Of a stretch of 64,000 bases of DNA, positions 8,168 to 64,000 are shown in pieces. Origin of the DNA: an uncultured Blautia sp. (lineage in GTDB: Bacteria; Bacillota; Clostridia; Lachnospirales; Lachnospiraceae); contig CAKRMK010000002.1 in the NCBI GenBank assembly GCA_934364795.1, positions 62,001 to 126,000 on the forward strand, in the 5' to 3' direction. Position 1 is the first letter of the stretch; each line of letters opens with the position of its first letter. Under the pieces are notes generated by a model. It did not search any database. It saw only the letters and a list, made by a program, of their open reading frames with translations, and was not told where the DNA came from. Position numbers and translations under genes: made by a program.

Positions 8168-8212
8168 GGCAGTGTCACAGATTATAATTGGTCTGTAACA
8201 CTGCCGCTTTTT
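8168..8212. terminator. Bidirectional terminator after the selenium cluster
   Basis: A 13-bp stem (8168-8180 with 8193-8205, one mismatch) has a T run on both sides when read on the respective strand. It ends the minus-strand selenium operon and any plus-strand transcript over the small ORF. Confidence 0.85.
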
Positions 8213-8221
8213 AATTATTAT

Positions 8222-8464: not shown

Positions 8465-8670
8465 TATTTCTCCAGGGTCAGAATAAAATCTTCCCCGTCT
8501 TCTTTCCAGGATACCTGATACCCCTGGTGCATGGCAAAGCGTGATACATTTTCTCTTGCAGTTACGTTATCTACCATTACTGTGTATGCCTTTTCTCCTA
8601 AAGCCAGAGCATTCTTTGTACGAATCACAGGTTCCGGACAGGAAAGTCCTCTTGCATCAATCGTTTTCAT
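8464..8670 (-). CDS. yedF: TusA/YedF-like sulfurtransferase domain protein
   Basis: A 68-residue single-domain TusA fold, which carries sulfur or selenium as a persulfide or perselenide on a conserved cysteine. The active-site motif is DARGLSCPEPVIRTKNAL, with Cys11 in the CPxP element. Selenium-associated YedF proteins often carry a second, DsrE-like domain of about 120 residues; here only the TusA part is present, and the adjacent DUF3343 protein may take over that role. It lies between YedE (42 bp upstream) and DUF3343 (overlapping downstream) in one operon. Ordinary sulfur relay remains an alternative. Confidence 0.85.
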   Translation of the reverse strand: MKTIDARGLSCPEPVIRTKNALALGEKAYTVMVDNVTARENVSRFAMHQGYQVSWKEDGEDFILTLEK

Positions 8671-8712
8671 ATCTTTTCTCTCTCTTTCTTACTTCTGGGT
8701 TTCTATATTTTT

Positions 8713-9792
8713 CTACTCCTCTGCTTTACGCATAGAATTCACCGTAGCAATCACGAACAGCACAACAAATCCAATCACAACTGCAACCTTACCATTTGCT
8801 GTAGGACCTTCTCCTGAAGAAGCAAGTCCGAAATTGTGTGCAATTGCAGCACCGGCCATCAGACCAAACACTGTGATTGCAGAATCTGTATTTCCCTCTC
8901 CTGCAAGTACCAGCTGGCGAAGGGGGCATCCTCCAAGAAGAACACAGCCAAATCCAGCCAGCGCCATTCCAAGTGCATTCCAAAGCCCGTCTGTATGTGC
9001 AATTGGCTGTCCTGCAAAACCAGGATTAAAATATCCAAAAATCATATTTCCAATAAGAGCACTTACCAGAATTGCAATGAATCCCAGAAGAAGTTTCCAC
9101 TCTCCAAATAAAACTACATCACGGATACCACCAACCATGCAAAGGCGTGTTCTCTGTGCCATTGCGCCAACAAGCAGACCAGCGATCAGAGAAATTGCAA
9201 TTGCCGCATGTTTAGCTCCAGGACCTCCATCAGCCTCTGTAAAATGAATAAATGCAGGTGCTGCAATTAAAAGTACAAGAATCCCAATTTCCACAATCGG
9301 GAAAATGCCACCTTCAACAGGCTGCATTTTGTAAGAACGCTTCAATGTATAACCTTTTTTCAGGAAAAATACACCTGCAAGAATTCCAGCAACAAAACCG
9401 ATCAGGCCAAAAATTGCATTAAAGTCTCCGCCTGCAAGGCGAAGGATCATACGGAACGGACAGCCAAGAAACATAAGGCAGCCAACCATAACAAACATTC
9501 CAATCACAAAACGGGTAACAGGTGCAGATCCCCCTCTTGGCTTGAACTCTTTGGTTGCAAGTGCCAGAATACAGGAACCAAGAACCAGTCCCACGATTTC
9601 CGGACGGATATACTGCACAGCTGCCGCAGAGTGAAATCCCAGTGCTCCGGTAGTATCACGCAGGAAGCAGGCAATACAAAATCCCATATTTGCAGGATTT
9701 CCAAAATAAACCAGTGCTACCGCAATGATTCCGATAATTAACCCCGCACCAATGATTATCGGCGTTTCTTTCTTTGATAAAGTTTCTTTCAT
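8713..9792 (-). CDS. yedE: YeeE/YedE-family selenium transporter
   Basis: Integral membrane protein of the YeeE/YedE family; members next to yedF are proposed selenium-compound importers. The 359-residue protein has about ten hydrophobic segments in two related halves. Conserved cysteine motifs are FCIACFLRD near the N-terminus, GCPFRMILRLAGGD at about residue 108, RLCMVGGIRD at about 215 and GCPLRQLVLAGEGN at about 290. The paired GCPxR motifs are the family signature and probably handle the thiol/selenol cargo. The ATG at 9792 is preceded by AAGGAGGAAAGAG. It leads an operon with yedF and DUF3343 and is divergent from the class V aminotransferase gene. Confidence 0.9.
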   Translation of the reverse strand: MKETLSKKETPIIIGAGLIIGIIAVALVYFGNPANMGFCIACFLRDTTGALGFHSAAAVQYIRPEIVGLVLGSCILALATKEFKPRGGSAPVTRFVIGMFVMVGCLMFLGCPFRMILRLAGGDFNAIFGLIGFVAGILAGVFFLKKGYTLKRSYKMQPVEGGIFPIVEIGILVLLIAAPAFIHFTEADGGPGAKHAAIAISLIAGLLVGAMAQRTRLCMVGGIRDVVLFGEWKLLLGFIAILVSALIGNMIFGYFNPGFAGQPIAHTDGLWNALGMALAGFGCVLLGGCPLRQLVLAGEGNTDSAITVFGLMAGAAIAHNFGLASSGEGPTANGKVAVVIGFVVLFVIATVNSMRKAEE

Positions 9793-9983
9793 TCTCTTTC
9801 CTCCTTACGCATGCACATGAAAAAACTGCAATCATATTGTGATTCATAATTTGTACAATTCATCCAGTTTTCCCATATATAAATGCTAAATCTTTCTTAT
9901 ATTTTAACAATTTCAAACCAAATTTTCCAATTGATTTAAAGGAATATTTTTTAGTATTTATAGATTATTTCAATAAATTATTG

Positions 9984-9989
9984 TATAAT
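9984..9989 (+). promoter_or_regulatory. -10 element of the class V aminotransferase gene
   Basis: A perfect TATAAT lies 41 bp upstream of the ATG at 10030, in the 237-bp divergent region shared with yedE. No good -35 is found at 17 bp, suggesting help from an activator such as the LysR protein encoded downstream. Confidence 0.45.
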
Positions 9990-10029
9990 AAATGATATCA
10001 AAATTATCCAGGAAAGGAACGAAATACCT

Positions 10030-11259
10030 ATGAACCGAATCTATCTTGATCAGGCCAGCACCTCTTTTCCAAAAGCTCCTGGCGTGGCGCAGGCAATGAT
10101 GGATTACATGACCCAAAATGGTGCGAACGTAAACCGTGGCTGTTATTCCAGCGCTTATTCCGCTGAAGAAGTCATTTATGAAACCCGGCAGCTTCTGGCT
10201 GACCTTTTCCATTTTCCCAAATGTAAAAATGTAATTTTTACTCCCAATATAACGACCAGCCTGAATTTTATCCTGAAAGGATTTTTGAAACCCGGTGACC
10301 ACATCCTGGTTTCCGCAATGGAGCACAATGCTGTCATGCGTCCCGTCATCCAGCTTACAAGACAGGGAATCACTTTTGACCGCATTCCCTGCCGCCAGGA
10401 TGGCTCCATGATTGTAGAACAAATTGAGCCATTAATAAATCCAAATACCCGGGCAATTGTAACACTCCATGCTTCTAATGTTTGCGGAACCCAGATGCCC
10501 CTTACCCAGATTGGAGAAATCTGCCAGAAACACCATTTATTTTTTATTGTGGATTCTGCCCAGACAGCTGGTATTCTTCCCATTGATATGGAAAGCTCCC
10601 ACATTGATGCACTGGCCTTTACCGGACACAAGGGACTTCGCGGACCACAGGGAACCGGCGGCTTCCTTGTTTCCCAGGAACTCTCCCAGCTGATGGAGCC
10701 TCTGATTTCCGGTGGAACCGGAAGTGTTTCCCACACAGAAGAGATTCCCGATTTTCTTCCGGACCGCTTTGAATCCGGCACCCCAAATCTTCCGGGAATT
10801 TACGGACTGCACCAGGCACTTTTATTTTTAAAGCAGCCTTCTGAAACATTCCAAAATATCCTCCAGACATCTGACGTAGAAAATACAATTTCATGGGAGC
10901 AGACAATGAACATACTCTATGAAAGAGAAATGACTCTCACCAGCTATTTTCTGGAACGCCTTCTGGAAGTAGATGATACCGGCAAACATATTCGTATTAT
11001 TGGAAAAAAAGATCTGAAAAACCGAAATGCCGTTGTCTCCATTCAGACACCGGAAATTGACATGTCACAGGTTGCCTGGGAGCTGGACAGCAAATACAAA
11101 GTTCTCACAAGAGTAGGGCTTCACTGTGCACCAAGTGCACATAAAACTCTTGGCACTTACCCAGCCGGAACCATCCGTTTTTCTTTTGGACCGGAAAACA
11201 CAAAAGAAGAACTGGATTTTGCTGTAAAAGGACTTGAAGAAATCTTAGAACGTGCTTGA
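10030..11259 (+). CDS. Cysteine desulfurase-like class V aminotransferase
   Basis: PLP enzyme of the NifS/SufS fold; in this context a probable supplier of sulfur or selenium to the carrier proteins. The 409-residue protein has MNRIYLDQASTSFPK at the N-terminus, SAMEHNAVMRP, the PLP-binding aspartate in VDSAQTAG, the Schiff-base lysine in AFTGHKGLRGPQG and the substrate arginine in DRFESGTPN. The C-terminal GLHCAPSAHKTLGT carries the mobile-loop cysteine. An insertion of about 30 residues follows position 270. Architecture fits the class V family usually found beside selenium genes (EF2568-like). GGAAAGGAAC precedes the ATG. It is followed by the LysR gene and is divergent from yedE. Confidence 0.9.
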   Translation: MNRIYLDQASTSFPKAPGVAQAMMDYMTQNGANVNRGCYSSAYSAEEVIYETRQLLADLFHFPKCKNVIFTPNITTSLNFILKGFLKPGDHILVSAMEHNAVMRPVIQLTRQGITFDRIPCRQDGSMIVEQIEPLINPNTRAIVTLHASNVCGTQMPLTQIGEICQKHHLFFIVDSAQTAGILPIDMESSHIDALAFTGHKGLRGPQGTGGFLVSQELSQLMEPLISGGTGSVSHTEEIPDFLPDRFESGTPNLPGIYGLHQALLFLKQPSETFQNILQTSDVENTISWEQTMNILYEREMTLTSYFLERLLEVDDTGKHIRIIGKKDLKNRNAVVSIQTPEIDMSQVAWELDSKYKVLTRVGLHCAPSAHKTLGTYPAGTIRFSFGPENTKEELDFAVKGLEEILERA

Positions 11260-49656: not shown

Positions 49657-50223
49657 TTAGTCCTCTTTATGCTCTTCCAGATATTCTTTCCGGCCCTCTT
49701 CATAAAGGTTGTTTCCTTCGCTGTCAATGATGACAACTAGCGGCATATCTTCCACATAAAGCTTGCGAAGTGCTTCTGCCCCAAGATCCTCATATGCGAT
49801 CAGCTCTGCTTTTTTGATGCATTTTGCAAGAAGAGCACCTGCACCGCCAATAGCTCCAAAGTAAACGCCATCGTATTTTTTCATGGCTTCTACCACTTCT
49901 GGAAGACGGGCTCCTTTTCCAATCATACCACGGGCACCTACGGACATCATGGTTGGTGCATAGGCATCCATACGGCCGCTGGTTGTAGGGCCTGCGGAAC
50001 CGATTACCTGACCTGGTTTTGCAGGAGTTGGTCCTACATAATAAATAGTTGCATCTGTTGGATCAAATGGAATTTTTTCGCCCTTTGCAAGAGCTTCGCA
50101 CATACGCTTATGGCCTGCATCACGGGATGTATAAATAGTTCCGGTAAGCAGGACCTGATCTCCTGCATGAAGTGTTTTTGCCAGTTCTTTTGTCAGAGGC
50201 AGTGTAATTTTTCTTCTTTCCAT
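49657..50223 (-). CDS. fumB: Fumarate hydratase, Fe-S type, beta subunit
   Basis: C-terminal (beta) half of the heterodimeric oxygen-sensitive fumarase, 188 residues. Landmarks: LTGTIYTSRDAGHKRM, then YVGPTPAKPGQVIGSAGPTTSGRMD (catalytic GPTTSGRMD), MIGKG and GAIGGAGALLAKCI. The ATG at 50223 has GGAGGTGATC upstream and lies 2 bp after the alpha-subunit stop. Malate and fumarate interconversion links the dehydrogenase and the fumarate-reductase-like genes of the same array. Confidence 0.95.
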   Translation of the reverse strand: MERRKITLPLTKELAKTLHAGDQVLLTGTIYTSRDAGHKRMCEALAKGEKIPFDPTDATIYYVGPTPAKPGQVIGSAGPTTSGRMDAYAPTMMSVGARGMIGKGARLPEVVEAMKKYDGVYFGAIGGAGALLAKCIKKAELIAYEDLGAEALRKLYVEDMPLVVIIDSEGNNLYEEGRKEYLEEHKED

Positions 50224-50225
50224 GA

Positions 50226-51068
50226 TCAGATCACCTCCGTTTTGTGACGGGTAACATGACAGTTGATATTGACTGCACATGGCATTCCTGCAATATGAGT
50301 AGGCATTGTTTCAATATTCAGACCAATGGCTGTGGTTCTTCCACCAAAGCCCTGAGGTCCGATTCCAAGCTTATTTACTTTTTCAAGCATTTCATCCTCA
50401 AGGTCTGCATAGAACGGATCCGGGTTATGGGAATCCAGCGGACGCATCAGTGCTTTCTTTGCAAGAAGCGCACATTTATCAAAAGTTCCACCGATTCCAA
50501 CACCAACTACCATAGGCGGGCATGGGTTCGGGCCAGCTGTCTCAACTACCTCCAAGATGAAATCTTTGATTCCCTGAAGACCTGCTGATGGCTTGAACAT
50601 ACGGATCATACTCATATTCTCACTTCCGAAGCCTTTGGGACCAACTGTAATCTTAATGTTCTCACCTGGTACAATTTCTGTGTAAAGCATAGCCGGTGTA
50701 TTATCCCCTGTGTTTCCACGGCGAACCGGATCTTTTACAACAGATTTGCGAAGATAGCCGTTTGTATAGCCACGGCGGACACCTTCATCTACTGCTTCTC
50801 TTAAATCGCCGCCTGTAATATGTACATCCTGTCCGATTTCCAGGAAAACACATGCCATTCCTGTATCCTGACAGATCGGTACACATTCATTGTCTGCAAT
50901 GTCAAAGTTTTCAATAATATTGTCAAGGATGCCCTGTGCGATTGCACCATCCTCACATGCACGACAGCTCTTAATGGCATCCTTTACGTCTTTTGGAAGA
51001 TGCTCATTCGCTTCGATGCAAAGCTTTTCGACTACGTCTGTAATCTGGCTTGCCTGAATTTCACGCAT
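50226..51068 (-). CDS. fumA: Fumarate hydratase, Fe-S type, alpha subunit
   Basis: Catalytic Fe-S subunit, 280 residues. The three cluster cysteines are in CVPICQDTGMACVFLEIG and PNPCPPMVVGVGIGGTFDKC. The cluster iron binds the substrate hydroxyl directly, as in aconitase. The ATG at 51068 is preferred to the GTG at 51077, since AGGAG lies 10 bp before the former and touches the latter. A strong hairpin at 51101-51134 separates it from the flavoprotein gene upstream, so fumAB may be partly a separate transcript. Confidence 0.95.
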   Translation of the reverse strand: MREIQASQITDVVEKLCIEANEHLPKDVKDAIKSCRACEDGAIAQGILDNIIENFDIADNECVPICQDTGMACVFLEIGQDVHITGGDLREAVDEGVRRGYTNGYLRKSVVKDPVRRGNTGDNTPAMLYTEIVPGENIKITVGPKGFGSENMSMIRMFKPSAGLQGIKDFILEVVETAGPNPCPPMVVGVGIGGTFDKCALLAKKALMRPLDSHNPDPFYADLEDEMLEKVNKLGIGPQGFGGRTTAIGLNIETMPTHIAGMPCAVNINCHVTRHKTEVI

Positions 51069-51100
51069 ACGACTCACTCTCCTGTTCTTTTATAGGGAAA

Positions 51101-51134
51101 GCCCAGGCAGATTGCATCTGTCAATCTGCAGGGC
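51101..51134 (-). terminator. Hairpin between frdA-like gene and fumA
   Basis: GCCCAGGCAGATTG (51101-51114) pairs with CAATCTGCAGGGC (51122-51134). On the minus strand it is followed by TTTCCC, a poor U tract, so partial termination or RNA stability control before fumAB is likely. Confidence 0.6.
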
Positions 51135-51180
51135 TTACCTGTTTTTAGAGAATTTTTATCATTTCTCTATTTTAACATAC

Positions 51181-52794
51181 TTATCGCTGTTCATGACGGG
51201 CATATTTAGGCAGCAGCAATGGAGATACCTTATCTGTGTGCACATCTGCTTCTTTTAACTCTTCTGCATATGCATAAATATGATTTAGGTTCATTTCCCC
51301 AAGTTCTACATTTTTGCATTTTGCAGCTGCTTTTTTACCTGCATTTCTTCCGAATACGATTACATCCAGAAGAGAGTTACCCATCAGTCTGTTTCTTCCG
51401 TGGATTCCGCCAGCTGCTTCTCCTGCAACTAAAAGGTTTGGAATCTCTTTTGTAAATCCGTCTCCGTCAATCTCCAGACCACCATTCTGATAATGAAGTG
51501 TAGGATAAATAACAATCGGAACCTTTCTCATGTCAATTCCATAGTTCATATACATACGGAACATAGCCGGAATTCTCTTTTCGATAGTTCCCTCGCCTCC
51601 AAGGATTTCAATCATTGGAGTATCCAGCCATACACCCATACGTCCGCCAGGAACCTCTACACCGCGTCCCTCTTCGCATTCACGGATAACACCGGAAGCA
51701 TTTACGTCACGGGTTTCCAGCGGATGAATGTAAGCTTCTCCGTTTGCATTTACAAGCTGAGCGCCAACGGAACGAACTTTCTCTGTTACCAGGGCACCAA
51801 GGATCTGTGAAGGATAAATTGCTCCTGTTGGATGATACTGGATAGAATCCTGGTAAAGAAGGGAAGCACCTGCTCTGTATCCCAGTACAAGTCCGTCTGC
51901 AGTTGCGCCATAGTGGTTGGAAGTAGGGAATCCCTGATAATGCATTCTTCCTGCACCACCGGTTGCAATTACAACTGTCTTTGCTCTTGCAACAGAATAA
52001 TCTCCTGTTTCCATGTTAAGAAGGACGGCACCTGCAACCTGTCCTTTTTCATCTTTAAGAAGTTCAACAGCAGAAGTAAATTCCACTACCGGAATGCCAA
52101 GGTTCAGGACCTCGTCTCTGATGGTACGCATGATTTCAGATCCGGAATAATCTTTTGCAGCATGCATTCTCTTTCTGGAAGTACCGCCGCCATGAGTTGT
52201 AACCATGGTTCCGTCTTCTGCTTTATCAAACTCAACGCCAAGGTCGTTCAGCCATTTGATTGCATCCGGAGCTTCCATTACAAGTCTTTTTACCAGTTCC
52301 GGCTTTGCAGCAAAATGTCCGCCGCCGAAGCAGTCCAGATAATGCTGTACAGGAGAATCATTTTCTTTATCAGCAGCCTGGATTCCACCTTCTGCCATCA
52401 TGGTGTTGGCATCACCAATACGAAGTTTTGTAACGATCATAACATTTGCACCGGCATTGTGTGCTTCGATGGCACAGGAAGAACCTGCACCGCCGCCACC
52501 GATTACCAGTACATCTACATCATAATCAATTTTTGTAAAGTCAATTTTTTCATTAAGCAGACGGCTTGTTGAATGCAGCATTTCTGTCAGTTCCAGAGGA
52601 GCTTTCTGTCCTTTGTTTGGTCCTACTTTAATTTCTGCGAATGCGTCTGGGTTATAATCCGGATGGAATTTCTTAAGAAGAGCGTCTTTCTCATCAGCTG
52701 TCAGACGTCTTGGCTCTGTTGCCATACGCTGTGCTCTTGTAGCCTCTACCTTTTTGATGGATTCCATCATATTTTCTGGATATGGTGCATACAT
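51181..52794 (-). CDS. Fumarate reductase-like flavoprotein subunit
   Basis: Soluble FAD subunit of the FrdA/SdhA/TfrA family, 537 residues. After an unusual 90-residue N-terminal extension comes the FAD fold VDVLVIGGGGAGSSCAIEA. Substrate motifs are conserved: IQYHPTGAI, TRDVNASGVI, PTLHYQNGG and HGRNRLMGNSLLDVIVFGR. The position of the histidine that binds FAD covalently in FrdA (SHTVAAEGG) is asparagine here (ANTMMAEGG), so FAD is probably non-covalent, as in methanogen TfrA. No membrane anchor gene is nearby. Lies 15 bp after its iron-sulfur partner at the end of the hdr-flx array. Confidence 0.9.
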   Translation of the reverse strand: MYAPYPENMMESIKKVEATRAQRMATEPRRLTADEKDALLKKFHPDYNPDAFAEIKVGPNKGQKAPLELTEMLHSTSRLLNEKIDFTKIDYDVDVLVIGGGGAGSSCAIEAHNAGANVMIVTKLRIGDANTMMAEGGIQAADKENDSPVQHYLDCFGGGHFAAKPELVKRLVMEAPDAIKWLNDLGVEFDKAEDGTMVTTHGGGTSRKRMHAAKDYSGSEIMRTIRDEVLNLGIPVVEFTSAVELLKDEKGQVAGAVLLNMETGDYSVARAKTVVIATGGAGRMHYQGFPTSNHYGATADGLVLGYRAGASLLYQDSIQYHPTGAIYPSQILGALVTEKVRSVGAQLVNANGEAYIHPLETRDVNASGVIRECEEGRGVEVPGGRMGVWLDTPMIEILGGEGTIEKRIPAMFRMYMNYGIDMRKVPIVIYPTLHYQNGGLEIDGDGFTKEIPNLLVAGEAAGGIHGRNRLMGNSLLDVIVFGRNAGKKAAAKCKNVELGEMNLNHIYAYAEELKEADVHTDKVSPLLLPKYARHEQR

Positions 52795-52809
52795 GTTTTT
52801 ACGCCCTCC

Positions 52810-53484
52810 TTATTTCTCAATATCTCTGTTGTTGTAAAGTTCTTCCATGTCTGTGATTGGTTTCTGCATGATCTGCTCGATCAGGTCATCAAATTTGCCT
52901 TCGTGAATCTCTTCTACACGTTTTTCAAGATGTTCACTCTTAGGTGCAATATATTTACCTGTGAGACGTCTTGCCAGAAGACCTACCATTGGATGAGAAA
53001 TACCAGCCGGGCATCTTACAGAACAGCATCCGCAGCTTACGCAGTCAAAGGATTCCTCTGCACATTTCTCAAGTTCGCCTCTCTGTGCATATGCGATATA
53101 CTGCATAACATTTAATCCCTGGGTACATGCTTTTGTGCAGGCATTACATCCGATACAGCTGTAGATTTCCGGATAGAGTTCCATCATTACCTGCTGGTTC
53201 GGCTGAAGATCTTCAATGTTATAAAGCCTCTTGTCTGTTGGGAAGAACGGGATGCTTGCTACATACATGCCTTCCTGTACCTGAGTCTGACAGGCAAGGC
53301 AGGTTTTCAGCTCGTTGTCACCTTTGATTCTGTAGATGGTGGCACAGGCGCCGCAGAATCCGTGACGGCAGCCGCAGCCTCTTTTCAGGGTGTAGCCTGC
53401 GTATTCCATTGCCGTCATAATAGTCAGGTCAGCAGGTACGGTGTATTTTTTACCGAAGAAATATACGTTTACCATATTTTCCAT
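52810..53484 (-). CDS. Fumarate reductase-like iron-sulfur subunit
   Basis: A 224-residue electron carrier. The N-terminal plant-type 2Fe-2S domain has CGCRHGFCGAC and CLAC. The C-terminal half has two cubane motifs, CIGCNACTKAC and CVSCGCCSVRCPAG, so two 4Fe-4S clusters rather than the 4Fe-4S/3Fe-4S pair of FrdB. It matches the N-terminal part of methanogen TfrB but lacks its CCG domain, which here is supplied by HdrB. Ribosome site AAAGGAACTCC. It would connect the Hdr/Flx module to the flavoprotein. Confidence 0.88.
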   Translation of the reverse strand: MENMVNVYFFGKKYTVPADLTIMTAMEYAGYTLKRGCGCRHGFCGACATIYRIKGDNELKTCLACQTQVQEGMYVASIPFFPTDKRLYNIEDLQPNQQVMMELYPEIYSCIGCNACTKACTQGLNVMQYIAYAQRGELEKCAEESFDCVSCGCCSVRCPAGISHPMVGLLARRLTGKYIAPKSEHLEKRVEEIHEGKFDDLIEQIMQKPITDMEELYNNRDIEK

Positions 53485-53538
53485 GTTGGGAGTTCCTTTC
53501 TTCTGATTGTCAATTACTAACTCTATTTTTCCATTTGC

Positions 53539-54393
53539 TTAATATTCGTCAGGTAACTGGTCGATTTCGTCCATTCTGAAAACCGGGCCATCTTTACATA
53601 CGTACTTGGAACCAATGTTGCAGCGTCCACATTTGCCGATACCGCACTTCATACGAAGCTCCAGAGTTGTATAAACCTGTGTTCTTGTAAATCCAAGTTC
53701 TTCAAGGCCCTGGAGAACGAATTTGATCATGATTGGCGGACCGCAGACAAGGGCTACTTTGTTGGTATCGAAGCCGATTTCCTTTAAGTAGGTGGGTACG
53801 AAACCTACATGGCCGTCCCAGCCTTCCTGCTCACGGTCAATAGTCAGGTAGACGTTTACGTCTTTGGCGTTCATCCAAACTTCCTGGATTTCTTTTAATT
53901 TCACCAGATCATCAGCGGAACGGGAACCATAGAGAATGTCTACTGTACCGTAATCGTCACGATTGTCCAGAACGTAATTGATAACAGAACGAAGTGGCGC
54001 AAGACCAATACCTCCGGCAATAAACAGAAGATTTTTGCCTTTTAACTTATCTTCAACCGGGAAATGATTTCCATATGGTCCACGGACTGTGATCTCATCT
54101 CCAACCTGAAGGCTGTGAAGATAAGAAGTCAGTTCACCGCATTTTTTAATACTGAATTCCTGATATTCTTTGTTGGTAGGAGAAGAAGTAATGGAAAACA
54201 TACCTTCGCTTACCCCTGGTGCACAAACCATTGCACACTGTCCTGGCATATGCTCAAAAAGCTTTCCGCCGTCCGGAGCAGTTACACAGAAAGTTTTTAC
54301 ATCCGGTGTCTCCTCATGGATATCTGTGATCACACCAACCTGCGGGATCAGCGTATCCAGTGTATAATTTTTATGACAGGTACACTCGCTCAT
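53539..54393 (-). CDS. flxA: FlxA-like FAD/NAD(P)H-binding subunit
   Basis: NAD(P)H dehydrogenase subunit related to AsrB, PyrK and FloxA, 284 residues. A ferredoxin-reductase FAD domain (GPYGNHFPV, FSITSSP) is followed by an NAD(P) domain (LLFIAGGIGLAPLRSVI, LVCGPPIMI) and a C-terminal 2Fe-2S site in MKCGIGKCGRCNIGSKYVC. It is the likely entry point for NADH electrons. ATG overlaps the stop of the flxB-like gene by 1 bp. Confidence 0.9.
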   Translation of the reverse strand: MSECTCHKNYTLDTLIPQVGVITDIHEETPDVKTFCVTAPDGGKLFEHMPGQCAMVCAPGVSEGMFSITSSPTNKEYQEFSIKKCGELTSYLHSLQVGDEITVRGPYGNHFPVEDKLKGKNLLFIAGGIGLAPLRSVINYVLDNRDDYGTVDILYGSRSADDLVKLKEIQEVWMNAKDVNVYLTIDREQEGWDGHVGFVPTYLKEIGFDTNKVALVCGPPIMIKFVLQGLEELGFTRTQVYTTLELRMKCGIGKCGRCNIGSKYVCKDGPVFRMDEIDQLPDEY

Positions 54394-55433
54394 TACTTTT
54401 CACCTCCATGCTTTTCAAAAGCCTTGATCACCTTTACAATGTTCAGGGATGACGGGCATTTTTCCACGCAGCGGCCACATCCCACACAGGAATACATGCC
54501 GTTATTGTTAGCCGGGAAATAAACAAGCTTGTGCATAAATCTCTGACGAAATCTCTGCATCTGGCTGGTACGGTTATTTCCATGAGCCATCATTGTGAAA
54601 TCAGAATACATACAGGAATCCCAGCAGCGGTAGCGTTTGATGCCGTGTCCTGTATCATAATCCTTGATATCATAGCACTGGCAGGTCGGACACACAAAAG
54701 TACAGGTTCCGCATGCCAGACAAGGTTTATAAAGGGTTTCCCATACAGGGGAGTTAAATTTCTCATCTGTAGCGTTTCCATCCCAGCCTTCCAGGGAAAG
54801 ATGGGTGTATGGAAGTTTTTCCACAATGTTATGGATTGCTTCTTTTTCAGCAGAAACTTTCTCTTCGTCAGAAGCGTCTGCCTCTGTAAGAAGATCTTTT
54901 ACAGAATCCGTAAGTGCCTGGCCTTTTTCGCTTACTGCTTTCCAGTAAAGAGTTCCCTCTACCATCCAGACAGCAACATCTGCTGCCGGATCTGCCGCAT
55001 CTGTTCCAAATACTTTACAGAAACAGGATTCCTCTGGTTCATGGCAGGCCATGGCAACAATCGTTCCATGCTCTCTTCTTGCTGCATAAAAGGTATCTAC
55101 AGGATCTGCAAGGAAAACCTTATCCAGAACCTCAACACCTTTTACATCACAGGCTTTCATGCCAAATACAACAAATGGACGGCTTCTTAATTCTTCCGGT
55201 TCTACTGTCAGCTTCTTTCCGTCACGGACACAGGTATAAAGTGTCTCGCTCTGTGGGAAAAAAGCATCCTTACCGGATTTTACGGTTTTTAATGTATCAA
55301 GATCTGCCTCTTCTTCCTGGCTCCACAGACCGAAATTTGTCTGTCCGGCTTTTTTGATCGGAAGGATCAGATCCTGGCTTTCTGCGATTTTCCGGAATAA
55401 TGCTTCCAGATTTTCTTTTTCAATCTTATACAT
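54393..55433 (-). CDS. flxB: FlxB-like 4Fe-4S subunit (AsrA/HdrL-related)
   Basis: A 346-residue iron-sulfur protein of the AsrA type. The N-terminal 210 residues contain FGMKACDVKGVEVLDKVF and MACHEPEESCFC; the C-terminal part has CLACGTCTFVCPTCQC and CVGCGRCVEKCPSSLNI, two 4Fe-4S sites, with RYRCWDSCMY between. Such proteins pass electrons from FlxA. It follows the flxC-like gene by 3 bp and overlaps flxA by 1 bp. Confidence 0.87.
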   Translation of the reverse strand: MYKIEKENLEALFRKIAESQDLILPIKKAGQTNFGLWSQEEEADLDTLKTVKSGKDAFFPQSETLYTCVRDGKKLTVEPEELRSRPFVVFGMKACDVKGVEVLDKVFLADPVDTFYAARREHGTIVAMACHEPEESCFCKVFGTDAADPAADVAVWMVEGTLYWKAVSEKGQALTDSVKDLLTEADASDEEKVSAEKEAIHNIVEKLPYTHLSLEGWDGNATDEKFNSPVWETLYKPCLACGTCTFVCPTCQCYDIKDYDTGHGIKRYRCWDSCMYSDFTMMAHGNNRTSQMQRFRQRFMHKLVYFPANNNGMYSCVGCGRCVEKCPSSLNIVKVIKAFEKHGGEK

Positions 55434-55436
55434 ACA

Positions 55437-56411
55437 TTATCCCCTTTCTGCCACTATGCCAGGCTCCACATCATCAAATGTAAAGCTTGTAAGCGGTCCT
55501 TTAGACTCTGCATCTGCTCCAGCCTGGTATTCACCATAGAATGTATCAATATCCTTGATAAATTTACGGTTGAACAGATGAAGCGGAATACCCTGGGGAC
55601 AAACACGGCTGCACTCGCCGCAGTCTGTACATCTTCCTGCAACATGGAAAGCACGGATAATGTGGAACATTTTTTCCTCAAAAGAATCCACATTTGCTTT
55701 CTGTGCACTGTCGAACTTGGTGCTGTCAAATACACATTTACGGCAGCTGCATGCAGGGCAGGCATTACGGCATGCATTGCAGCGGATACATTTGCTAAGC
55801 TCTTTCTGAAAAAATGCAAAGCGTTCTTCCGGGCTCATTTTTTCAATTTTCTCAACTTCTGCAAAACGGTCTGCATCTTTTGTATCTTTGGATTCACCGA
55901 TGATCTCGTCATAGATCATGTGCTCTTTTCCCTTACATACATGGCAGCGTTCCAGCATGGCATCTTTGTAAGCTGCAGTCTTATCACCGTAGATTGTGGA
56001 AATGTTAAGTGTTTCACAATCATCTGTAAGCTCTGCACCGGAAATACTCTGGATTCCTTTGATTCCCATTTTACGAAGCTTTTCCACGTCCAGCTTTCCT
56101 TTACATCCAACACCAATAATATAGGCTTTTTCGCGATCTACACGGTGTTCCTTGATCAGCTGGTTAAAACTATAAGTATCACAAGGCTTCAGACAGACAA
56201 GTGTCTTACCTTCTAATTTGGAAGCCTCGATCATCATCTTGCTTAAATTCGCACCGCAGAAACCGTTATAAACAAATTCATCCAGGCTTTCTGCTGTTTC
56301 AAAATATGCTGCTTCCGGATTGTAAGGCAGGTCTCCGGCTTTCCAGCCAAGAACACGTACTACGGTTCCATCTGCCAGCAATTCTTTTGCACGGTTGATC
56401 AGTTCCTGCAT
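55437..56411 (-). CDS. flxC: FlxC-like 4Fe-4S subunit (F420-hydrogenase beta-related)
   Basis: A 324-residue iron-sulfur protein. The first 190 residues (FCGANLSKMMIEASK, LVCLKPCDTYSFNQLIKEH, GVGCKGKLDV) resemble the FrhB/FdhB-type domain; the rest has CIRCNACRNACPACSC and CTDCGECSRVCPQGIPLH, two 4Fe-4S sites. In Desulfovibrio FloxABCD the corresponding subunit lies between FloxB and the MvhD-like FloxD. Its ATG overlaps the mvhD-like gene by 13 bp; GGAGGATTTAAG lies in front. Confidence 0.87.
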   Translation of the reverse strand: MQELINRAKELLADGTVVRVLGWKAGDLPYNPEAAYFETAESLDEFVYNGFCGANLSKMMIEASKLEGKTLVCLKPCDTYSFNQLIKEHRVDREKAYIIGVGCKGKLDVEKLRKMGIKGIQSISGAELTDDCETLNISTIYGDKTAAYKDAMLERCHVCKGKEHMIYDEIIGESKDTKDADRFAEVEKIEKMSPEERFAFFQKELSKCIRCNACRNACPACSCRKCVFDSTKFDSAQKANVDSFEEKMFHIIRAFHVAGRCTDCGECSRVCPQGIPLHLFNRKFIKDIDTFYGEYQAGADAESKGPLTSFTFDDVEPGIVAERG

Positions 56412-56842
56412 CTTAAATCCTCCAATCTCACGTTTTTACCCAGAGAATGGATCTTTTCCACAAATTCATTCATAGTCTGGGAGAATTTTACACCTTCTGC
56501 GGCAGATACCCACTCTACACGAGTACGTCCGTTTTCCACACCGATATAATCTAACATGGAAAAAAGAAGTGTCATACGTCTCCTTGCATAATAGTTTCCG
56601 GTTGTATAGTGGCAGTCTCCCGGATGGCAGCCGCACATGATCACACCGTCAGCGCCCTTTTCAAAAGCACGCAGGATAAACATTGGATTCACACGGCAGG
56701 AGCATGGTACACGGATGATCTTTACATCTGCCGGATAGGAAAGACGGCTGCTTCCTGCAAGATCTGCACCGGCGTAACTGCACCAGTTACAGCAAAAAGC
56801 CACGATCTTTGGTCTGAATTCTTCTTTTGCTTCTATCGACAT
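56399..56842 (-). CDS. flxD: MvhD/FlxD-like hydrogenase iron-sulfur subunit
   Basis: A 147-residue 2Fe-2S protein of the MvhD family, which docks on HdrA and feeds it electrons. Cysteine motifs: FCCNWCSYAGADLAG, RVPCSCRVNPMFIL and MCGCHPGDCHY, the family hallmarks. The ATG at 56842 has GGAGGTAGATG in front; the open frame to 56941 lies inside hdrA. It overlaps hdrA by 10 bp. Confidence 0.92.
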   Translation of the reverse strand: MSIEAKEEFRPKIVAFCCNWCSYAGADLAGSSRLSYPADVKIIRVPCSCRVNPMFILRAFEKGADGVIMCGCHPGDCHYTTGNYYARRRMTLLFSMLDYIGVENGRTRVEWVSAAEGVKFSQTMNEFVEKIHSLGKNVRLEDLRCRN

Positions 56843-58821
56843 ATTGCATCTACCTCCGCTAAAATCTGTCTGTTGGAGAATCCCTGAAGATCCATTGCTC
56901 CGGACGGACAGGTTACTGTACAAGCACCACAGCCCTGGCAAAGAGCATTATTTACAACCGCTACCCTTCTTGTCTCACGGATTCCATGGTCGTTGACCTG
57001 TTTTTCCTCATAAGAAATTGCACCATATGGGCACACATTTGCACACTGGGAGCATCCGTTGCAAAGAAGTTCATCGGAATGAGCTGTACATGGGTTGGTG
57101 GTCAGCTTGTCTTTTGCAAGAAGGCCGATTGCCTTTACTGCTGCCGCACCTGCCTGTGCTACAGTCTCCGGAATGTCTTTTGGACCCTGGCACACACCGG
57201 AAAGGAAAATACCAGCTGTAGGTGACTCTACCGGACGGAGCTTTGCATGTGCCTCTGTAAGGAAATTATTCGTGTCAATACTAGCAGTAAGCATAGTTGC
57301 AATTTTTCTTACATCTTTATTTGGCTCAATGGCAGCTGCAAGGACAACCATATCTGCTTCCATAAGGATCTGTTTGTTTTCCAGAAGGTCAGAAGCCTGA
57401 ACCATAAGTGTTCCGTCTGGCTGCGGAATTACTTTTCCTACCTGGCCTTTTACATAATTTACACCGTAATCTTCAACTGCTCTTCTGTAGAACTCATCAA
57501 AGTTTTTACCTGGAGTACGGACATCAATGTAGAATACCGTTACGTTTGTATCCGGATATTTATCGCGGATGAGCATTGCATGTTTTGCAGTATACATACA
57601 GCAGATTTTGGAGCAATAGCTCTTTCCTCTTTCGTCAGAGCAACGGCTTCCCACGCACTGGACGAATACAATATTCTTCGGAGCTTTTCCATCAGAAAGT
57701 CTCTCAAGATGGCCTTTTGTAGGGCCGGCTGCATTCATGATACGCTCAAGTTCAAGGGAGGTAATAACGTCCTTGCTCTGGCTGTAAGCGTACTCATCAT
57801 ATTTATCAAGAGGGATCACATCGAAACCGGTTGCAACAACGATGGCACCGTATTTCTGTGTAACAATCTCATCTTTTTGCTCATAATCAATAGCACCGGC
57901 TGCACAAACCTTGGAGCAGGCACCACATTTTCCGGTTTTGAATTTGATACAGTTTTCACGGTCGATTACCGGAACATTTGGGATAGCCTGTGCGAACGGA
58001 ATGTAGATGGCACTTCTGTTGTTAAGGCCCCTGTTAAATTCATTTGGATTTTTCTTTGACGGACATTTGGATGAACACACTCCACATCCTGTACATTTGT
58101 CCATATCCACACTTCTTGCTTTTTTACGGATGTCAACAGTGAAATCTCCAACAAAGCCGCTTACTTTCTCAACTTCACTGTATGTATAAATGTTGATCTT
58201 CTCATGTGCTGCTGCCTCTACCATCTTTGGTGTGAGGATACATGCAGAACAGTCAAGTGTAGGGAAGGTTTTGTCAAGCTGGGACATTCTTCCGCCGATA
58301 CTTGGAAGCTTTTCCACAATATCAACTTCATAACCTGCCTCTGCAATATCAAGCGCAGACTGGATTCCGGCAATACCTCCGCCGATTACAAGGGCGCGTT
58401 TTGTTACAAGGCTTTCTCCTGGCTGAAGAGGAGCATCTAAGTTTACTTTTGCGATTGCTGCTCTTGCAAGGATCACTGCCTTTAAGGTCGCTTCTTCCAT
58501 ATCTTTATGGATCCAGGAGCAATGCTCACGGATGTTTGCGATTTCTACCATATATGGATTTAAGCCCGCTTTCTGGGCTGCTTTACGGAAAGTAGCCTCA
58601 TGCATACGGGGGGAACAGGAACAGACTACAATTCCTGTCAGATTTTTCTCATGGATGGCATTAATGATTTTGGCCTGTCCTGCTTCAGAACACATATACT
58701 GGTAATCTTCTGCATGGACAACTCCTGGCTCTTTTGCTGCCATTTCCACTACTTTTTTTACATCGACTGTGGCTGCAATGTTTGTACCACAATGACATAC
58801 AAATACACCTATTCTCTGCAC
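56833..58821 (-). CDS. hdrA: CoB-CoM heterodisulfide reductase subunit A-like (bifurcating flavoprotein)
   Basis: Flavoprotein HdrA, the electron-bifurcating core in methanogens, 662 residues. Landmarks: N-terminal FVCHCGTNI, the FAD motif LVIGGGIAGIQSALDIAEAG, IGGRMSQLDKTFPTLDCSACILTPKM, 4Fe-4S motifs CTGCGVCSSKCPSK and CIKFKTGKCGACSKVC, and a C-terminal ferredoxin domain with CNGCSQCANVCPYGAI and CQGCGACTVTCPSGAM. No in-frame UGA. I use the GTG at 58821, which has AGGAGGT 9 bp upstream at the hdrC stop; the frame to 58854 is less likely. It overlaps flxD. Confidence 0.93.
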   Translation of the reverse strand: MQRIGVFVCHCGTNIAATVDVKKVVEMAAKEPGVVHAEDYQYMCSEAGQAKIINAIHEKNLTGIVVCSCSPRMHEATFRKAAQKAGLNPYMVEIANIREHCSWIHKDMEEATLKAVILARAAIAKVNLDAPLQPGESLVTKRALVIGGGIAGIQSALDIAEAGYEVDIVEKLPSIGGRMSQLDKTFPTLDCSACILTPKMVEAAAHEKINIYTYSEVEKVSGFVGDFTVDIRKKARSVDMDKCTGCGVCSSKCPSKKNPNEFNRGLNNRSAIYIPFAQAIPNVPVIDRENCIKFKTGKCGACSKVCAAGAIDYEQKDEIVTQKYGAIVVATGFDVIPLDKYDEYAYSQSKDVITSLELERIMNAAGPTKGHLERLSDGKAPKNIVFVQCVGSRCSDERGKSYCSKICCMYTAKHAMLIRDKYPDTNVTVFYIDVRTPGKNFDEFYRRAVEDYGVNYVKGQVGKVIPQPDGTLMVQASDLLENKQILMEADMVVLAAAIEPNKDVRKIATMLTASIDTNNFLTEAHAKLRPVESPTAGIFLSGVCQGPKDIPETVAQAGAAAVKAIGLLAKDKLTTNPCTAHSDELLCNGCSQCANVCPYGAISYEEKQVNDHGIRETRRVAVVNNALCQGCGACTVTCPSGAMDLQGFSNRQILAEVDAICR

Positions 58822-58828
58822 TTTTTTC

Positions 58829-59230
58829 TCACCTCCTGTATCTTCTGAATGCACTTACCAGAAGCTGCTGGGGAGTTTCCTCGTCAATCAGCTGTGGGAT
58901 TTCGTCTGCTGTCAGATAGTTCTGTCCACGTTCACGGACAACGATCTGTCTGGCTGCATCGATCAGTTTTCCTGGTTTTACATCTCTTGGGCAGCGCTCT
59001 ACGCAGGCAAAACAGGAAAGACATTTCCATAAGGATTTTGACTGTGCAAGTGCTTCTATGTTGCCGTTCTGTACATAAGTTACAAACTGGTGAGGTTTGA
59101 TATCCATCTCATTAAATGCAGGACAGGTTGCAGAGCATTTGCCACATTTCATACATTTCAGGGGATTGACTCCTGAAATCTCTTTGATTCGTGCTGCTGC
59201 ATTTTCTGTATTTCCATATGTATAAGCCAT
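58829..59230 (-). CDS. hdrC: HdrC-like 4Fe-4S electron carrier
   Basis: A 133-residue double 4Fe-4S protein that wires HdrA to HdrB. Motifs: CMKCGKCSATCPAFNEMDIKP and CLSCFACVERCPRDVKPG. In one operon with hdrB (overlapping by 1 bp) and hdrA (7 bp gap). Confidence 0.93.
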   Translation of the reverse strand: MAYTYGNTENAAARIKEISGVNPLKCMKCGKCSATCPAFNEMDIKPHQFVTYVQNGNIEALAQSKSLWKCLSCFACVERCPRDVKPGKLIDAARQIVVRERGQNYLTADEIPQLIDEETPQQLLVSAFRRYRR

Positions 59231-60024
59231 TACTTCGCCACCTCCTCTTTTACTCCGAGAGCTTCTGCAAGAAGTTCTGTAAAATAGTAAACAGGAATGG
59301 TACCGTTTCCGTTCTTTTTCAGGTTATACATGCAAAGTGGACAGGCGGTAATAAGCATATCTGCTTCAAAACCGTTTGCACTGCCCATGATCTTTTTACA
59401 CATATTCTGTGCCATTTCTTTTTCCTTCAGGGAAATGTAACCGCCACAACATTCATTGCGGTATGGGTAAATCACAGGCTCTGCTCCCAGGGCACGGATA
59501 AAATCTTCCATAATGGTTGGATTTTCCGGATTATCAAATGCCATGATTTTTCCCGGTCTTAAAAGCAGGCATCCGTAGTAGGCACCGATTTTTTTGCCTG
59601 TTAAAGGATTGACTACTTTCTTTTTGATCTCGTCAAATCCAACTTTGTCACGGAGCACTTCCAGATAATGAAGGACATTTGTCTCTCCCTCATATGGAGT
59701 GTCCAGTTTCAGATAATTGTTGGCTCTTGTGCGAATGTCTTCCACATTTTTCATGTCGTCATTTACACGTTTGAGCACATGATGACAGGCTGAACAGACA
59801 GTAATCAGATCCTGACCTTTTTCTTTTGCATCGTTTAGCGCACGGACAGAAGAAAGCTTGGTGGCAATTTCATCGCTGCCAAGGGGATATACACCTCCAC
59901 AGCACTGCCAGTCCTTAATTTCTTCCATTTCGAAACCCAGCGCTTTTGCAGAAACTCTGGCATATGCATCCAGATCTTTTGCCTTATTCTTCAGGGTACA
60001 TCCTGGATAATAACTGTACTTCAT
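59230..60024 (-). CDS. hdrB: HdrB-like CCG-domain subunit
   Basis: Subunit with two CCG domains that bind non-cubane 4Fe-4S clusters and perform disulfide or related chemistry in HdrB, 264 residues. The motifs are WQCCGGVYPLG, VCSACHHVLKRV, then YGCLLLRP, RNECCGGYISL and ACPLCMYNLKK. The ATG at 60024 has AAAGGAACAACAG in front; the open frame to 60072 is rejected. What disulfide (if any) it reduces is unknown: CoM/CoB are not expected in this organism, so it may instead relay electrons to the fumarate-reductase-like subunits. Confidence 0.92.
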   Translation of the reverse strand: MKYSYYPGCTLKNKAKDLDAYARVSAKALGFEMEEIKDWQCCGGVYPLGSDEIATKLSSVRALNDAKEKGQDLITVCSACHHVLKRVNDDMKNVEDIRTRANNYLKLDTPYEGETNVLHYLEVLRDKVGFDEIKKKVVNPLTGKKIGAYYGCLLLRPGKIMAFDNPENPTIMEDFIRALGAEPVIYPYRNECCGGYISLKEKEMAQNMCKKIMGSANGFEADMLITACPLCMYNLKKNGNGTIPVYYFTELLAEALGVKEEVAK

Positions 60025-60181
60025 GCTTCTGTTGTTCCTTTCTGGTAACTGTAAAACAAAAATGTTACCCATTCTTAAATAATTTTTCAGGCGGAAATGA
60101 TTTTTTTAATACGCATCAGAAGCCACAGCTTACTGCTTTTCGCAATAGAAACTATGGCGTCCCTGCTAAATCTTTCCCTTT

Positions 60182-61129
60182 TTACAGTTCAATCTGTGCA
60201 ATAACTTCTTTCAGTGCATTTGCACTCTTTTTCAGAAGTTCTACTTCTTCTTTGTTCATACGCATCTGAACTTTTCCCTGTGTACCATTTGGACCTACAA
60301 GGGTAAGGGTACTAAGGCATACATCTTCAATTCCGTACTCTCCGTGAAGCATGGAGGATACAGTGGCCAGGGAATCAGAAGCAGCCAGGATCAGACCTAC
60401 CAGCTGGCAAACAGTTGCAGATACTGCATAGAAGGTTGCACCTTTTTTGGCAATAACCTTTCCACCTGATTTCTGAACATATTCAAGCATGGCTTCTTTG
60501 TCCAGAGGCTTTATGTCTTTTCCGTGTGCTTTCATTTCTTCGTAGTACTCATCTGTGCTAAGACCTGAAATATAAGCACCTGTCCACGGAATGAAAGAAG
60601 TGTCGCCGTGCTCTCCAAATACATAGGCGTGAATGTTTCCCTGGGCTACCCCAAAGTGTTCGGAAAGTCCATAGCGAAGTCTTGCAGTATCAAGAATGGT
60701 TCCGGAACCCATGATCTGATTTTCCGGCAGTCCGGAAATCTTGGTAAATACGTAAGTCATAATGTCAACCGGGTTGCTTACAATAATGTACTTGGCATCT
60801 GGAGCTTCTTTTACAATCTGAGGGGTAATGCTTTTCAGAATGTTTACGTTTGTCTGGGTAAGCTCAATTCTGGTCTGGCCAGGTTTACGGGCAATTCCGG
60901 AGGTAATGATTACAATATCGGAATCCTTTGCATCAGCGTAATCTCCTGCAACCAGGGAAACCGGACTTCTGAAGCAGGTTCCCTGCTCAATGTCCATTAC
61001 CTCTCCTTCTACCTTTTCTTTGTTAATGTCGATCAGAACAATTTCAGAAGCGATTTCATCATGTGCCAGTGTGTAAGCGATTGTGGAGCCTACACTTCCC
61101 GCTCCGATAATGGTGATTTTGCTGCTCAT
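60182..61129 (-). CDS. Malate/lactate dehydrogenase family protein (malate-type residue)
   Basis: NAD-dependent 2-hydroxyacid dehydrogenase of 315 residues. NAD motif IIGAGSVGSTIAYTL, Asp in VLIDINKEK (NAD-specific), catalytic His in FGEHGDTSFIPW, and the substrate loop SGIARKPGQTR. At the specificity position (102 in LDH numbering) it has Arg, as in malate dehydrogenases (LARKPG), where lactate dehydrogenases have Gln (NQKPG). With fumarase and a fumarate-reductase-like enzyme in the same array, malate formation from oxaloacetate is the better reading, although relatives are often labelled lactate dehydrogenase. First gene of the array. Confidence 0.85.
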   Translation of the reverse strand: MSSKITIIGAGSVGSTIAYTLAHDEIASEIVLIDINKEKVEGEVMDIEQGTCFRSPVSLVAGDYADAKDSDIVIITSGIARKPGQTRIELTQTNVNILKSITPQIVKEAPDAKYIIVSNPVDIMTYVFTKISGLPENQIMGSGTILDTARLRYGLSEHFGVAQGNIHAYVFGEHGDTSFIPWTGAYISGLSTDEYYEEMKAHGKDIKPLDKEAMLEYVQKSGGKVIAKKGATFYAVSATVCQLVGLILAASDSLATVSSMLHGEYGIEDVCLSTLTLVGPNGTQGKVQMRMNKEEVELLKKSANALKEVIAQIEL

Positions 61130-62991: not shown

Positions 62992-64000
62992 TTACAATTC
63001 TTCCAGTTTCTCAAGTTCGCCGCCAAATGAAGTATCCATACACTCTTCAAATGCAGCCTCTTTTTTCATTTTATCCAGTGCCACTGCTGCTTTCTTTACA
63101 GTCTGCACCGTTCCTGCGCCTGCTATACATCCGCCAGGACATGCCATTCCCTCTAGCAGATAACCGTTGTATTTTCCGGCTTTGGCTGCCATCATCATTT
63201 TTTTACATTCCTGAAGTCCATTAGCACTGACTACCTTTACTTCCCGGTCAGGATCCATACGTTTCACTGCTTTTACTACAGCAGCTGCAACACCGCCGCT
63301 GGCTGCAAAACCACGGCCGTCACTGCTTGCTGAAGAAAGTGGCTCTTCTTCAGGAATGTCTGCAAAATCAACACCTTTTGCTTCAAACATACCCTGAACT
63401 TCTTCAAATGTAAGTACAAAATCCACATAACTGCGAACTGATTTGCGGCTTGCCTCCAGCTTCTTGGCAGCACAGGGACCAACAAAAACGATCTTGCAGT
63501 CTGGTTCTTCCTGTTTCAGAAGTCTTGCAGTCAGTACCATAGGGGTCAGTGCCATGGAAATACAGTTTGCAAACTGCGGAAACATTTTTTTCGCCATTAC
63601 AGACCATGCAGGACAGCAGGATGTTCCCATAAAGGGGATTTTCTCCGGTACTTCCTCCATAAAATCTTTAGCTTCTTCAATGGTGCAAAGATCCGCTCCG
63701 ACTGCAACTTCTTTAATATCCGTGAAACCAAGAGCCTTAAAAGCACCTCGAAGCTGGGTATTTTTCAGTGCAGGCTCAAACTGCCCAGCTACAGCCGGTG
63801 CCACAATGGCGTATACCGATGTCTCACTTTTTAGTGCCATGATGGTCTGATAGATCTGCCCTTTATCTACAATAGCGCTAAACGGACAGCTTACCAGACA
63901 CATTCCACAGGAAACACATTTGTCATAGTCGATTTCAGCTCTGCCATATTCATCAGAATGGATGGCTCCCATTCCACATGCTTTTGCACAGGGGCGCTCC
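62992..64000 (-). CDS. [FeFe] hydrogenase large subunit, partial at right edge
   Basis: C-terminal 335 codons of an iron-only hydrogenase; the frame stays open at the edge. First comes a two-cluster ferredoxin domain (PCAKACGMGAI, CVSCGMCLVSCPFSAI). The H-cluster motifs follow: L1 GTSCCPAW, L2 FVGPCAAKKLE and L3 EGMACPGGCIAGAG. L2 has Gly where standard catalytic enzymes have Met (MPCxxKxxE), and the sequence ends soon after L3, which points to a non-standard group (group B or a sensory type) rather than the bifurcating HydA. The proton-transfer cysteine in TSCCP is kept. No HydB/HydC genes are downstream; pepT follows. Confidence 0.92.
   Translation of the reverse strand, partial: ERPCAKACGMGAIHSDEYGRAEIDYDKCVSCGMCLVSCPFSAIVDKGQIYQTIMALKSETSVYAIVAPAVAGQFEPALKNTQLRGAFKALGFTDIKEVAVGADLCTIEEAKDFMEEVPEKIPFMGTSCCPAWSVMAKKMFPQFANCISMALTPMVLTARLLKQEEPDCKIVFVGPCAAKKLEASRKSVRSYVDFVLTFEEVQGMFEAKGVDFADIPEEEPLSSASSDGRGFAASGGVAAAVVKAVKRMDPDREVKVVSANGLQECKKMMMAAKAGKYNGYLLEGMACPGGCIAGAGTVQTVKKAAVALDKMKKEAAFEECMDTSFGGELEKLEEL

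Follow-up and report, generated by a model that had tools for sequence, protein, structure and literature searches.

Introduction

Methanogens possess a soluble fumarate reductase, TfrAB, the TfrB subunit of which uses thiols. The HdrB subunit of heterodisulfide reductases (Hdr) ordinarily reduces disulfides, and the methanogen Hdr enzyme of structure 5odc is electron-bifurcating. A related module, Hdr-Flox, is reportedly linked with endogenous fumarate reduction in Desulfovibrio alaskensis, as the title of a 2014 article has it. In this article we describe a twelve-gene operon, mdh-hdrBCA-flxDCBA-frdB-frdA-fumAB, which runs on the minus strand from position 61129 to position 49657 of a contig stretch of an uncultured Blautia sp.; this whole stretch, 64,000 nucleotides long, is called the window below. 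It seems probable that its products form a cytoplasmic route leading from oxaloacetate to succinate, with a soluble, NADH-driven and Hdr-Flx-linked fumarate reductase which probably reduces ferredoxin.

Similar arrangements have been described. A 'succinate operon' was reported from Pseudoclostridium thermosuccinogenes, for which the authors proposed fumarate reduction by a Flx-Hdr-linked enzyme that reduces ferredoxin (PMC7282089). In sulfur bacteria tfrAB was found interspersed with flxABCD-hdrABC, and a joint complex was suggested (PMC6315080). In Blautia luti the frdAB genes are transcribed, and cell extract showed both NADH-dependent malate dehydrogenase (MDH) activity and a methylviologen-dependent fumarate reductase activity of 504 mU/mg on glucose; the terms Hdr and Flx are absent from the main text of that study (PMC12773636).

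Results

A conserved twelve-gene operon

An earlier note, made from the letters of the window, had given the place and order of these genes; both were borne out by the gene list of the window, which puts them on the minus strand, and the families assigned agree. It was confirmed that the cluster is a coherent conserved unit, real rather than a product of chance. With the likelier start codons (Table 1) most junctions are overlaps or gaps of less than 60 bases; the larger intergenic gaps are those before hdrB (about 157 bases) and fumA (about 103 bases). None of the twelve proteins reached the hydropathy threshold of 1.8 for a membrane stretch, MDH being the nearest at 1.77, and neither the gene list nor hydropathy revealed membrane anchor subunits of the complex II type within the operon, in agreement with the note.

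The note had also suggested looking for the same gene order in relatives. Close kin were taken from a scan of genome contigs as the best 80 of at least 587 FrdB-encoding stretches; Blautia wexlerae was the closest named isolate by FrdB (96%) among the matches listed. The complete twelve-gene order was found in 51 of the 80 loci. In the remaining 29 mdh was absent or the locus ran off the contig end, and one locus (L063) was without mdh and fumAB. Where the loci extended far enough, FlxA was present in 74 of 74, HdrB in 65 of 65, FrdA in 77 of 77, FumA in 72 of 76 and MDH in 55 of 63.

Linkage was also tight in the class of B. wexlerae (G001), of which 291 genomes were sampled. The FrdB family was present in 40 of them, at 51-96% identity and with a clear gap to the next match; one weak partial match, 58 residues of a 447-amino-acid frame in G277, was set aside. 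FlxC of the operon kind and HdrB each occurred in 41 of the 291 genomes, four weak FlxC matches (G041, G069, G074, G159) being counted apart. All 40 genomes with FrdB contained FlxC, on the same contig in 38 cases, with the two genes split between contigs in G259 and G278, and 39 of the 40 contained HdrB, on another contig in some. In each of the odd genomes, G036 and G228 (without FrdB) and G075 (without HdrB), a contig end truncates the locus: one contig has 5340 bases, in one case HdrB lies 18 bases from an end, and one contig stops inside flxC. The gene order can differ, as in Tindallia magadiensis (G273), where it is fumA-fumB-frdB-frdA-hdrBCA-flxDCBA. Correlations of inter-gene distances, calculated over 58 loci, were not used as evidence of a complex: the loci had been chosen by FrdB similarity and their genes are all linked, therefore such correlations are uninformative on contact versus linkage.

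The HdrABC-FlxABCD module

All seven subunits of an HdrABC-FlxABCD module are encoded together in the operon. HdrA and HdrB were closest to solved HdrA and HdrB chains, respectively; HdrA aligned over almost its full length with the HdrA of 5odc, the inserted cysteine motif included, and FlxD falls into the FlpD/MvhD family. The ten cluster cysteines of HdrB, forming two complete CCG motifs, are presumably the ligands of non-cubane [4Fe-4S] clusters, and they were invariant in 79 rows as well as in a second set of 24 rows (HdrB rows of 250 amino acids or less excluded). The eight cysteines of HdrC were invariant in 80 rows. The alignment of cysteine conservation and the FrdA tree described below leave out proteins truncated at the end of a locus and those with no fitting start.

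Four class genomes with only a distant FlxC carry hdrC-hdrA-flxDCBA clusters (L158-L161). Methylenetetrahydrofolate reductase stands in front of the cluster in L159, the one scanned in detail, and a distant FrdA-like match (31%) lies about 4 kb from the cluster in L160. The HdrB-type CCG motif was found nowhere in the 11.8-16 kb fetched for these four loci, while two motifs were found in each of the five FrdBA-type loci tested: in this small class sample HdrB accompanies FrdBA. Such a rule is not general, since acetogens (Moorella) have HdrB in such a complex.

The fumarate reductase pair

FrdA retained the catalytic residues of fumarate reductases in the alignment, and Asn130 replaces the histidine that binds FAD covalently, Asn being found in 73 of 73 rows. 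The protein has an N-terminal extension of 90 amino acids and is without the C-terminal helical region. Its best NCBIfam model was TfrA, yet with 331.7 bits against a cut-off of 718; FrdB reached 32.6 bits with the TfrB profile, the cut-off of which is 385. The second half of FrdB is an HdrC-like dicluster domain. No CCG domain was detected in FrdB, and the open frames around FrdB in the 40 class genomes comprised 225-267 amino acids, with no HdrB-like fusion. The earlier note had suggested that HdrB and a shortened Fe-S subunit together replace TfrB; the hdrC-hdrB-frdB-frdA clusters described below fit this idea, but FrdB cannot be regarded as merely shortened, because of its HdrC-like half.

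A natural fusion of FrdB and FrdA (P0191, 675 amino acids) was not used. Its FrdB is truncated at about residue 170 and its FrdA starts about 32 residues in, and it looks like a deletion or an assembly join.

Compared with the frdA of the window, the frdA genes of loci L001-L080 fall into two classes, of about 80% identity (49 of 74) and 88-98% identity (25 of 74). This split was not mirrored in the distances of hdrABC, flx or fumA in these loci, which had been picked by FrdB similarity; it looks as if frdA may have been swapped in place. Additionally, B. wexlerae has a second FrdAB-like pair (518 and 236 amino acids; L177, 2746-5533, on a 6.1-kb contig), adjoined by a 179-amino-acid protein that reads as membrane-spanning.

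Malate dehydrogenase and fumarase

The operon dehydrogenase scored above the NCBIfam cut-off for L-lactate dehydrogenase, which makes this malate dehydrogenase an annotation trap. At the specificity position, before KPG, Arg instead of Gln was found in 64 of the 64 operon homologues checked. We take Arg to be the malate-type residue at this site, and the lactate dehydrogenase assignment was dropped for this reason. The fetched B. luti locus (L003) contains the operon without an adjacent mdh, so the MDH activity of its extract may stem from another gene.

In L165 a class II fumarase stands between mdh and hdrB (738.8 bits in NCBIfam against a cut-off of 664.75) and L164 reads alike; fumAB was not found in either locus. 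That an unrelated fumarase fills the same step in L165 supports the malate-fumarate-succinate pathway.

Partners of FrdB in the wider phylum

A second sample covered 348 genomes of the wider phylum. FlxC-like genes were present in 121 of them, 92 of which were without FrdB; the FrdB family was present in 32, three of which (G360, G363, G581) gave no FlxC match. The neighbourhoods of 31 FrdB matches, G001 excluded, could be sorted as follows. In five of the loci hdrBCA-flxDCBA stands beside frdB. Nine (L183-L187, L206-L209) have the order hdrB-hdrA-second large hdrA-flxD-flxC-like-frdB-frdA without flxA and flxB; hdrB is visible in six of these and lies outside the fetched stretch in the others, the second HdrA has 1053-1098 amino acids where complete and 1489 in L187, and in L184, L187 and L208 the order is fused, truncated or only partly resolved. 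Three loci (L189, at 6831-10491, L190 and L193) consist of hdrC-hdrB-frdB-frdA with no adjoining hdrA or flx, and in L211 hdrC-hdrB-frdB is seen on a contig of 3.8 kb which stops short of frdA. Five loci have membrane Fe-S genes next to frdB (L204 and L205 by motif and hydropathy only). In the remaining eight there is malic enzyme, pyruvate carboxylase, MDH or nothing; L191, L199 and L202 were checked with Pfam, and L194 and L212 are cut by the contig start. Altogether, hdrB was visible beside frdB in 15 of the 31 loci.

Because of the minimal hdrC-hdrB-frdB-frdA clusters, HdrB/C is the likeliest adaptor to FrdBA; caution is advised, as the four genomes with minimal clusters (G337, G539, G562, G585) carry flxC-like genes elsewhere. 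In the FrdA tree (43 rows) the hdr-flx label needs five changes, at least four of them forced by well-supported branches, therefore hdr-flx linkage has been gained or lost repeatedly. Of the 17 hdr-flx rows in the HdrB tree, 16 fall into one supported group, the roots being uncertain. The grouping of HdrB against the scatter of FrdA points to a reshuffling of modules. The earlier note had named related genomes with the hdr-flx genes apart from the pair as what would refute it, and this was half borne out: in the class sample the pair and hdr-flx co-occur in 40 of 40 genomes, but in the wider phylum the pair has other neighbours or stands alone, and flxC-like genes frequently occur without it.

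Features of the window

The coordinates of the features are collected in Table 1. A monomeric group B1 [FeFe] hydrogenase is represented by its C-terminal part, 1.9 kb upstream of the operon. An Rfam scan of the window gave no match at gathering score. Promoter-like sites in the region numbered 18 against a mean of 23.9 in shuffled sequences, i.e. they were not enriched; terminator-like sites numbered 18 against 10.8 in shuffles, but were mostly intragenic, and neither a promoter nor a terminator is claimed.

Table 1. Features of the window with their positions, strand and the basis of each assignment
Feature	Description	Position	Strand	Basis
mdh	LDH/MDH-superfamily dehydrogenase, predicted NAD malate dehydrogenase	60182..61129	-	families; Arg before KPG
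hdrB	two CCG domains	59230..60072, likelier start 60024	-	domains, ten conserved Cys
hdrC	two [4Fe-4S] motifs	58829..59230	-	domains, 8 conserved Cys
hdrA	FAD and Fe-S subunit, candidate bifurcation site	56833..58854	-	alignment to 5odc HdrA
flxD	MvhD/FlpD-like	56399..56941, likelier start 56842	-	PF02662
flxC	[4Fe-4S] protein	55437..56411	-	domain families
flxB	sulfhydrogenase-beta/AsrA-like Fe-S protein	54393..55433	-	domain families
flxA	FAD/NAD-binding reductase-like subunit, putative NADH entry	53539..54393	-	PF00970, PF00175, PF10418
frdB	FrdB-like; [2Fe-2S] domain and HdrC-like two-[4Fe-4S] domain	52810..53484	-	domains, alignment
frdA	FrdA-like flavoprotein, FAD_binding_2	51181..52794	-	Asn130 at covalent-FAD His site, catalytic residues kept
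fumA	class I fumarase alpha	50226..51077	-	NF004885, 416.9 bits against cut-off 276
fumB	class I fumarase beta	49657..50280, likelier start 50223	-	NF005310, 294.8 bits against cut-off 238
[FeFe] hydrogenase	group B1, C-terminal part	62992..63999		401 bits against cut-off 450; gene cut by window end

Discussion

In the proposed pathway MDH would convert oxaloacetate to malate, FumAB malate to fumarate, and FrdA fumarate to succinate, the last step being fed by a soluble assembly of the NADH dehydrogenase/heterodisulfide reductase type. FlxA would take a hydride from NADH, and the electrons would pass via FlxB/FlxC and FlxD, reaching HdrA at its FAD. At this flavin they would probably be split: one electron towards ferredoxin, the other by way of HdrC and both non-cubane HdrB clusters to FrdB and FrdA. 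The net reaction would be 2 NADH + fumarate + oxidised ferredoxin (2 e-) -> 2 NAD+ + succinate + reduced ferredoxin. The proposal is based on gene content, order and conservation, on the ligand and catalytic residues and on the swapping of partners, all of which were observed; from these we infer the complex, the path from HdrB to FrdB and the bifurcation.

Several points weigh against this scheme. Since HdrB normally reduces disulfides, a thiol intermediate is possible. The predicted structure of FrdB is weak, with a predicted local distance difference test score of 68.6 and a predicted template modelling score of 0.44. In 26 of the 31 wider-phylum loci frdB is without the hdrBCA-flxDCBA neighbourhood, hence hdr-flx is neither obligatory nor the sole possible donor for the pair, and the flxC-like genes located elsewhere in the hdrC-hdrB-frdB genomes make coupling in trans possible. 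The second FrdAB-like pair of B. wexlerae means that extract activity in the genus Blautia is not assignable. Furthermore, plain NADH dependence of the fumarate reductase is assumed in PMC12773636, where the donor in the B. luti assay was reduced methylviologen, and no NADH or ferredoxin activity of any such enzyme was found in the open-licence literature.

A plain NADH:fumarate reductase, in which Hdr-Flx gives both NADH electrons to FrdBA and ferredoxin is not reduced, is an unlikely alternative. HdrA aligned almost end to end with the HdrA of 5odc, an enzyme that bifurcates, and a seven-subunit donor would seem costly for a step that runs 350 mV downhill. The plain route agrees with the NADH-dependent fumarate reductase by which the fermentation of B. 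luti was modelled (PMC12773636), and no measurement of ferredoxin coupling is contained in the literature covered. In PMC7282089 succinate was lost when H2 was added, which its authors regard as consistent with ferredoxin coupling, while the effect was the reverse when Na2S was used to lower the redox potential.

It is rather improbable that the HdrB site of HdrABC-FlxABCD serves to reduce a small disulfide or a thiol protein and that FrdAB draws on this thiol pool, with no single wire between them. All cluster ligands of HdrB are retained, the methanogen TfrB uses thiols, and the hdrC-hdrB-frdB-frdA clusters resemble a split TfrAB; nevertheless, no gene for a thiol or carrier belongs to the conserved cluster, and since FrdB has no CCG domain the thiol-oxidising site would again be HdrB. 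We consider it very unlikely that the genes encode co-expressed but separate enzymes, with FrdAB receiving its electrons from ferredoxin, from a different flavoprotein or from a membrane module, while hdr-flx serves another acceptor: frdB without adjoining hdrA, hdrB or flx (13 of 31 wider-phylum loci) and the three of 32 FrdB genomes with no FlxC match speak for it, but the co-occurrence in 40 of 40 genomes of the class sample, together with five more linked genomes of the wider sample in separate parts of the FrdA tree, speaks against it. Reverse operation, i.e. succinate oxidation with ferredoxin-driven confurcation to NADH, would need only the same genes, and Hdr-type enzymes can be reversible, but it is highly improbable in view of Asn at the covalent-FAD position in every row and of the succinate which B. 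luti and P. thermosuccinogenes produce from sugars (PMC12773636, PMC7282089).

Beyond the soluble, ferredoxin-reducing fumarate reductase proposed for this operon, a broader model may tentatively be considered. FrdBA might be a portable head which natively contacts HdrB, as a split thiol:fumarate reductase HdrBC-FrdBA, into which different lineages would plug HdrA-Flx, double-HdrA/MvhD or membrane Fe-S modules; the HdrA-Flx version of gut Blautia and its relatives would be a true bifurcating fumarate reductase feeding ferredoxin to Rnf, with quinone-free energy conservation. The FrdBA traits that could be understood in this way are Asn in place of the covalent-FAD histidine, the N-terminal segment, as a docking element, and the Fe-S subunit mimicking HdrC.

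If the proposal is true, bacteria like Blautia, which are common in the gut, form succinate via a soluble ferredoxin-charging enzyme, the fumarate counterpart of the bifurcating crotonyl-CoA step, and would gain about 0.56 ATP more per succinate than by a plain NADH route, calculated with the stoichiometries of PMC12773636 (2 H+ per 2 e- for Rnf, 3.6 H+ per ATP). B. luti is cultured, which makes the proposal directly testable, and whether HdrB connects directly to a fumarate reductase could be studied in the hdrC-hdrB-frdB-frdA clusters as a minimal system.

The reading of the earlier note is supported as regards a fumarate reductase that is soluble and NADH-linked and belongs to an operon for the malate-fumarate-succinate route; HdrB is the likely relay, and there is room for ferredoxin reduction. 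Its claim of novelty has to be narrowed: no purified bifurcating fumarate reductase was found in the open-licence literature, subscription papers lying outside the search, but the concept is present in PMC7282089 and tfrAB together with flx-hdr in PMC6315080. The operon is thus a further case of an already proposed kind; the concept is not new, and no enzymology was found in the literature searched. The present analysis adds the tight linkage in the class and the swapping of partners beyond it; it also adds the minimal hdrC-hdrB-frdB-frdA clusters, the likeness of one half of FrdB to HdrC and the Asn that replaces the covalent-FAD histidine.

The likeness to TfrAB consists of the best-matching flavoprotein model, TfrA, an HdrB-type partner and solubility; it differs in that HdrB of the window has a gene of its own next to those of HdrA and HdrC, FrdB is without a CCG domain and the scores are far under the TfrA and TfrB cut-offs. 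Complex II and quinol:fumarate reductase share the catalytic residues with the window protein, which is without the covalent-FAD histidine and the anchor subunits. The L158-L161 clusters have HdrC, HdrA and FlxDCBA in common with the operon and differ by having no CCG motif and no FrdB. The same seven kinds of subunits occur in FlxABCD-HdrABC of Desulfovibrio (Ramos 2015, Meyer 2014). In tubeworm symbionts and Thioflavicoccus fumarate reductase genes also stand among flx-hdr genes, but these sulfur oxidisers have korABCD too, within a reductive tricarboxylic acid cycle, whereas the window holds a branch with mdh and fumAB (PMC6315080). P. thermosuccinogenes, compared with the window by gene list, likewise combines the genes for fumarase, hdr-flx and fumarate reductase in a single operon. 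Its fumarase lies ahead of hdr-flx, with a possible transporter downstream (PMC7282089), whereas in the window class I fumAB comes after frdA and mdh stands before hdrB.

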